Source: Nitrospira sp. (GTDB lineage Bacteria > Nitrospirota > Nitrospiria > Nitrospirales > Nitrospiraceae). Taken from it: a stretch of 64,000 nt of DNA. A program made the position numbers and the translations under genes. The first letter of the stretch is position 1. Each line of letters opens with the position of its first letter. The stretch is from the NCBI GenBank assembly GCA_016873435.1, contig VGXF01000001.1, positions 62,001 to 126,000 of the forward strand, read 5' to 3'. Shown here piece by piece: positions 17,833 through 18,928 of this stretch. The notes under the pieces are model-generated. The model was not told the DNA's origin. It did no database searches and saw only the letters and a program-made list of their open reading frames with translations.

Positions 17833-18519
17833 ATGCGCATTGGCTTATTTGGCGGCACATTCAATCCCATCCATAACTGCCACCTGACAATTGCGACACA
17901 AGTTCGCACCCGCTTTGCTCTTGATCAAGTTCTGCTCATTCCCGTCGGGGATCCGCCGCACCGATCGAACCGTGATCTGGCGCCGGCTGCGCACCGCCTT
18001 GAAATGGTCCGGCTGGCTATTGCCGGCAACCCGACCCTTGCCGTTTCCGATGTTGAAATCCGTCGTCCCGAAAAATCCTATTCGATCGATACCGTCCGGA
18101 TTCTGCGCCATCAGTATGGTGCCGGGGTAGACCTCTATTTCATTCTCGGCCTTGACGCCTTTCTTGAATTCCCCAGCTGGCGGCAGGCCCCGGAGTTATT
18201 GGCGCTCTGCCATTTCGTCGTCGTGTCCCGCATGGGCGTCTCTTTCGTGCCGCTGGCAGACCGCCTGCCCCTGCCGAAGCTCTCCCGCCAGGCGCTCGAA
18301 GACCTGGATCGTCGAGTGACCGACCGACTCGACGTCCCGGTCCCCGGCGGCACGAGCCTAGCCCTGCTGTGTCTGCCACCCTGCGATATTTCAGCCTCGG
18401 ACATTCGGCAGCGGATTCACAGCCGGTCCGACGTCGCCTTATTGTTGCCGGCCTCTGTCAAATCTTATATAATGGAGCATAACCTTTTTCAGGAGGAGCT
18501 CAATCGTCCCGGATTCTAA
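17833..18519 (+). CDS. nadD: Nicotinate-nucleotide adenylyltransferase
   Basis: Adenylates nicotinate mononucleotide in NAD synthesis. The 228 residues start with the nucleotidyltransferase motif IGLFGGTFNPIHNCHL, where the TxxH variant of the HxGH box is visible. The C-terminal ISASDIRQRI motif is typical. The spacer before it contains short CCTTAAC-like repetition. Its last 17 bp overlap the reconstructed rsfS. Confidence 0.95.
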   Translation: MRIGLFGGTFNPIHNCHLTIATQVRTRFALDQVLLIPVGDPPHRSNRDLAPAAHRLEMVRLAIAGNPTLAVSDVEIRRPEKSYSIDTVRILRHQYGAGVDLYFILGLDAFLEFPSWRQAPELLALCHFVVVSRMGVSFVPLADRLPLPKLSRQALEDLDRRVTDRLDVPVPGGTSLALLCLPPCDISASDIRQRIHSRSDVALLLPASVKSYIMEHNLFQEELNRPGF

Positions 18520-18928
18520 GGCTAGGGCCCTCGCTATCGCGCACGCGTCGCTCGAGAAAAAAGCTGACGACGTCGTGGTCCTTGATGTTGGGAAGCTCAC
18601 CTCCGTAGCCGATTATTTGGTAGTCTGTTCGGGCGGGTCGGACCGCCAGGTTCGCGCCATCGCGGATCACATCGATGGCAGCCTTGCCCAGCAACAGATC
18701 TCCCCCCTCAGCATTGAAGGCCTCTCCTCGTCGCAGTGGGTGTTGCTGGACTATGGGGATGTGATTGTGCACATCTTCCGCGCTGATATCCGCCATCACT
18801 ACGCGCTCGAACGCCTCTGGAGCGACGCAGCACAGACGCGCGTCACTGATACAGAACCTGCGTCGGCTCTGGCCGCCGCAACGGCGCCCGCACGCGCCGG
18901 ATGGTCCCGCACACGGGAGCATCGCTAG
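18503..18928 (+). CDS. rsfS: Ribosomal silencing factor RsfS, apparent ATC start
   Basis: RsfS binds L14 and blocks subunit joining under poor nutrition. The conserved body (DVVVLDVGKLTSVADYLVVC, HYALERLW) is clear. The only standard start codon near the N-terminus is GTG 18575, which would delete the first helix, including the recognisable SKARALAIAHASLEKK, about 24 residues. The frame stays open back to a stop at 18470 with no ATG, GTG, TTG or CTG. A full AGGAGG at 18491-18496 is six bases before ATC at 18503. I therefore annotate ATC as the start (141 aa). A sequencing error or a recent mutation from ATG is the alternative. Confidence 0.85.
   Translation: MVPDSKARALAIAHASLEKKADDVVVLDVGKLTSVADYLVVCSGGSDRQVRAIADHIDGSLAQQQISPLSIEGLSSSQWVLLDYGDVIVHIFRADIRHHYALERLWSDAAQTRVTDTEPASALAAATAPARAGWSRTREHR

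Follow-up and report, generated by a model that had tools for sequence, protein, structure and literature searches.

The question raised by this locus is where translation of rsfS begins. We analysed a 64,000-nt window (the whole stretch of DNA studied) from a 1.72-Mb draft genome, in which rsfS lies in the order obg, proB, nadD, rsfS and a gene for a TPR protein, the first two being named from their sequences. From position 18470 the codons of the rsfS frame read TAA TGG AGC ATA ACC TTT TTC AGG AGG AGC TCA ATC, and from 18503 they read ATC GTC CCG GAT TCT AAG GCT AGG, continuing to GTC GTG, with this GTG at 18575. Re-reading the codons bore out two claims of an earlier sequence-only reading, namely that the frame holds no ATG, GTG, TTG or CTG between the stop at 18470 and GTG 18575, and that AGGAGG is placed six bases ahead of ATC 18503. 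The product matched the curated RsfS profiles over its full length and above their cut-offs (TIGR00090, 117.1 bits against 56.9; PF02410, 111.9 bits against 21.6), which identifies it as RsfS, and homology to solved RsfS chains predicts that it binds uL14 on the 50S subunit and hinders subunit joining. The nadD 3′ end and rsfS share 17 nt, read in different frames, with the nadD stop TAA at 18517, and the in-frame TAA at 18470–18472 sits within a putative −10 element (Table 1).

Table 1 Features of the nadD–rsfS region (window coordinates) and of the infC start in the source genome.
Feature	Position	Strand	Basis
nadD, nicotinate-nucleotide adenylyltransferase	17833..18519	+	ORF list; NF000840.1, 190 bits
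−35 element TTGCCG of the putative promoter embedded in nadD	18445..18450	+	Promoter scan; TTG Leu codon conservation
−10 element TATAAT, 17 bases past the −35	18468..18473	+	Promoter scan; ATA Ile codon conservation
Shine-Dalgarno AGGAGG of rsfS	18491..18496	+	Sequence; column conservation
rsfS start codon AUC (nearly certain)	18503..18505	+	Conservation in family loci; parsimony steps
rsfS, 141 codons plus stop	18503..18928	+	TIGR00090, PF02410; solved homologues 9q40, 2o5a, 4wcw
GTG, Val 25, first canonical codon in the rsfS frame, not the start	18575..18577	+	PF02410; relatives
infC start region, L206	C4:83701-83715	−	AUC start

We compared the start region across 73 members of the Nitrospira family, representing 22 genera plus two loci without genus assignment. 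ATC occupied the rsfS start codon in 63 of the 73 loci, and none of the 73 had ATG, ATT or ATA there. Because ATC is kept at the same codon in 62 further assemblies, including the single-contig genomes L018, L022, L025, L170 and L200, we ruled out chance and sequencing error. Upstream, columns −10 to −7 of the Shine-Dalgarno region were nearly invariant. This conservation in relatives strongly supports the earlier proposal that rsfS starts at ATC behind a perfect Shine-Dalgarno sequence, and we regard AUC 18503 as nearly certainly the start on these comparative grounds. The remaining ten loci all belonged to genus g18, of which an eleventh member retains ATC, and carried GTG one codon upstream instead. 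In these ten (L021, L028, L114, L115, L117, L118, L122, L123, L183 and L184) only three bases separate GGAGG from GTG, and ATC is replaced by AGC.

Parsimony counts, made on a tree built from the family sequences themselves, gave 0, 1 and 0 steps for the three ATC columns and a mean of 16.6 for rsfS third codon positions. Within codons 9–15, third positions took 10–26 steps and first and second positions mostly 0–8, codon 14 excepted; early rsfS codons vary mostly at third positions and are therefore translated. The stability of the 5′ leader RNA was not above that of shuffled sequences (z 1.2). An in-frame ATG occurs at rsfS codon 15 in L022, L023, L025, L026, L030–L033 and most g6 and g9 loci; it will likely mislead gene finders into a shortened RsfS, and genera g2, g6, g9 and g16 could make a shorter form of the protein from it.

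Constraint on the overlapping NadD was considered as the cause of the ATC letters and excluded. The nadD codon overlapping the AT of ATC has the form NAT, and each of the four bases occurs at its first position (GAT, AAT, CAT, TAT); where it specifies Asp it is GAT in 46 of 46 cases, although nadD has 296 GAT vs. 368 GAC. Since the first base is free and Asp is always GAT even though GAC is the commoner codon, the constraint acts on AUC and not on NadD. As a control, start codons of neighbouring genes in the same loci were canonical, with ATG in 46/46 for the downstream gene and ATG, GTG or TTG in 43/46 for nadD; in the other three (L025, L113, L121), nadD has none of these codons near its expected start. 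AUG is one mutation away from AUC and yet is absent at the rsfS start, suggesting that a weak start is favored by selection, such that AUC has likely been kept for its weakness.

A promoter scan found TTGCCG-17-TATAAT in the nadD 3′ end (18445–18473), which matches a sigma-70-like motif whose phylum-wide form is TTGCCN-17-TATAAT/TATACT. All 61 family loci had TTG as the Leu codon in the −35 element and ATA as the Ile codon in the −10 element, whereas in the rest of nadD these codons make up 9% and 2.6%, respectively. The same two codons were found in all 84 other Nitrospirota loci bearing the motif, and TTG occurred in only 5 of 23 loci in the set from other phyla, a few of which, such as L040 and L047, are in fact Nitrospirota. 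Rare codons fixed at a 17-base spacing indicate an embedded promoter, and rsfS is probably driven by this sigma-70-like element within nadD, which would place the mRNA 5′ end about 22 bases ahead of AUC.

The sequence-only reading had likened rsfS to infC, the gene for IF3, and in the Nitrospira family the analogy turned out to be literal, as the infC start codon is likewise AUC, preceded by GAGGTG, in 28/28 loci. In other families the infC start was AUC in 7/7 (f2) and 3/3 (f4), AUG in 12/12 (f3), and AUA in nearly all of 30 loci from Thermodesulfovibrionia (L335–L364). Mixed pairs also occur, with AUU for rsfS and AUG for infC in g24 (f3) and GTG for rsfS and AUC for infC in g18; because of these, the two starts are not locked together and coupling between them is not obligatory.

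Outgroup rsfS genes mostly had other non-standard start codons. Sister family f2 had AUA behind a Shine-Dalgarno sequence (six loci; one AUC), and sister family f3 had AUU in genus g24 and AUG or GUG in its other genera. In Thermodesulfovibrionia, the codon at the Met position of MDSK proteins was UUA, AUA, AUC, AUU or AUG, and the starts are apparently AUA or UUA. UUA stood behind a Shine-Dalgarno sequence in 32 Thermodesulfovibrionia loci, of which a few also have a canonical codon close by; its position follows the Shine-Dalgarno sequence and not the protein core, and TTA makes up only 15% of other Leu codons in those genes. The putative UUA start follows GGGAGG or GGAGG, often as CCTTTA, in loci including L162–L164, L189, L192, L195, L286, L289, L297, L311, L316, L322 and L327–L329. 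Pairing of AAAGG with CCTTT could mask the Shine-Dalgarno sequence in such genes. No description of UUA as a natural bacterial start was found in the literature searched, the coverage of which was partial.

By a strict count, which required the frame to be free of ATG, GTG and TTG as far as codon +7, beginning at either the preceding stop or codon −15, rsfS was without a canonical start in 120/184 Nitrospirota loci vs. 10/68 from other phyla, with some assignments hinging on alignment at the edges and with the other-phyla loci being an uneven sample collected by similarity to the RsfS of the window. Outside Nitrospirota, rsfS looks CUG-started in Chloroflexi and AUA- or UUA-started in anammox Planctomycetes and one Omnitrophota genome (odd starts in L106, L111, L082, L091, L054, L057 and L101). 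Family f9 rsfS genes (L151, L155, L156, L158, L159) are without an evident start and have a conserved ACG/ACA GTC after GGAG; just one member has TTG.

RsfS keeps the 50S subunit, and IF3 the 30S subunit, from joining. The explanation that we favor, with a probability of roughly 0.8, is that a strong promoter and Shine-Dalgarno sequence feed a weak, IF3-discriminated AUC that rsfS shares with infC. The AUC start, the avoidance of AUG, the codon shared with infC and the conserved −35/−10 pair are read directly from the aligned sequences, and the remaining steps would be as follows. Most rsfS mRNA would come from the sigma-70-type promoter within nadD, and RsfS would be initiated with fMet at the near-cognate AUC. 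The near-perfect Shine-Dalgarno sequence would recruit ribosomes well, but initiation would nonetheless be rare owing to the mismatch of the third-position C with the initiator anticodon, and low efficiency at this codon is likely. IF3 would eject the mismatched initiation complexes, such that abundant IF3 would lower RsfS output and a shortage of free IF3 would raise it, following the same logic as infC autocontrol; for this dependence of rsfS on IF3, by which its expression would be tied to initiation fidelity, we put the chances at about even. Both the 30S and the 50S anti-association factor would thereby come under one translational valve, with the shared AUC raising RsfS and IF3 together when IF3 runs short, a physiological coupling that we suggest somewhat more tentatively. 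Weak starts gave about 10% of the expression from AUG in Staphylococcus aureus reporters (PMC13009471). Rejection by IF3 of starts mismatched at the third position is described for infC and pcnB in work cited by PMC13009471 and PMC1780047, the latter also citing autocontrol through the infC AUU and the case of pcnB. IF3 and RsfS jointly oppose premature subunit joining in Escherichia coli recovering from arrest (PMC13246957).

A different role for the weak codon would follow if ribosomes finishing nadD at TAA 18517 backed up and reinitiated at AUC, with the codon merely barring independent initiation. The overlap of nadD and rsfS, conserved in the window and in most of the family, leaves room for such translational coupling, but overlap did not accompany the weak start everywhere, as non-standard starts persist in Thermodesulfovibrionia loci in which the nadD motif ends at least 100 bases upstream (L162–L164, L189). 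The embedded promoter would moreover yield mRNA without nadD, and the Shine-Dalgarno sequence is strong enough for direct initiation; we consider coupling unlikely. The same overlap places rsfS in the +1 frame of nadD behind an SD-like AGGAGG, an arrangement reminiscent of prfB, in which an SD-like element at short spacing lies upstream of a +1 frameshift. A NadD–RsfS fusion made by frameshifting was nevertheless rejected, given that no slippery codon is conserved; the Shine-Dalgarno spacing suits initiation and not the short spacing of prfB, the bases flanking ATC vary freely, and there are lineages without overlap, leaving this the least probable of the readings considered.

Canonical codons farther into the frame (GTG 18575 in the window and the codon-15 ATG that is common in g2, g6, g9 and g16) could in principle serve as the start, with the upstream part not being protein. 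A start at GTG 18575 would drop PF02410 model positions 3–16, however, and relatives have no conserved start-type codon at this position, while many genera have no canonical codon at all within the first 30 codons. The third-position signature of codons 4–15 is that of coding sequence, and conservation of the Shine-Dalgarno sequence and ATC would be left without a reason. We therefore rejected a downstream start as highly improbable. Use of AUC by infC as well might instead mean that it is an ordinary start, read by a special initiator tRNA or tolerated because start selection is relaxed, and that it has no role in regulation. A pattern search of the source genome detected only a single tRNA-Met(CAU) of the normal type and no second or special initiator, which led us to reject the special tRNA; ATC mismatches the normal initiator at the third position only. 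Neighboring genes use ATG, GTG or TTG, and among 47 sites matching GAGG-N5-7-ATCGT across the source genome, nearly all of which were inspected, rsfS and infC alone look like real starts, such that an ordinary AUC is also very improbable. One pattern site (L256) heads an 85-codon frame without a canonical start, whose translation resembles no protein that we recognize.

Few genes are experimentally known to have starts that IF3 rejects, infC being the textbook case. Autocontrol by IF3, weak starts and RsfS itself have all been described before, whereas we found no report of the rsfS AUC, its conservation or the codon shared with infC in the part of the literature searched. Like rsfS, infC (AUU, AUC or AUA) combines a near-cognate start with a strong Shine-Dalgarno sequence and a subunit anti-association product, and the codon is the identical AUC in the Nitrospira family; unlike infC, whose product acts on the 30S subunit, rsfS encodes a different factor, predicted to act on the 50S subunit, and its dependence on IF3 is a proposal. 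The genes pcnB (AUU, E. coli) and, in Staphylococcus, ccpN (AUA) and cvfC1 (AUU) likewise have conserved weak starts that limit expression and extended Shine-Dalgarno sequences (PMC13009471), but they encode unrelated proteins, and none is kept as AUC or has been shown in a group of comparable breadth. E. coli rsfS itself has a minor start codon, UUG (PMC10917681), which is accepted, whereas AUC is a third-position mismatch of the kind that IF3 discriminates against.

These results indicate that automated annotation will overlook rsfS or call it too short throughout Nitrospirota. More broadly, and tentatively, rsfS across this phylum may be held on weak starts (AUC, AUA, AUU, UUA), usually behind a nadD-embedded promoter, and be paired with infC under gating by IF3, the two together setting how many ribosomal subunits can join. 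rsfS would be a second translation-control gene to keep such a codon over the age of a bacterial family, in genomes whose infC has the identical codon, and, if the proposed mechanism is true, discrimination by IF3 would extend beyond the private feedback of infC to shared control of both anti-association factors.
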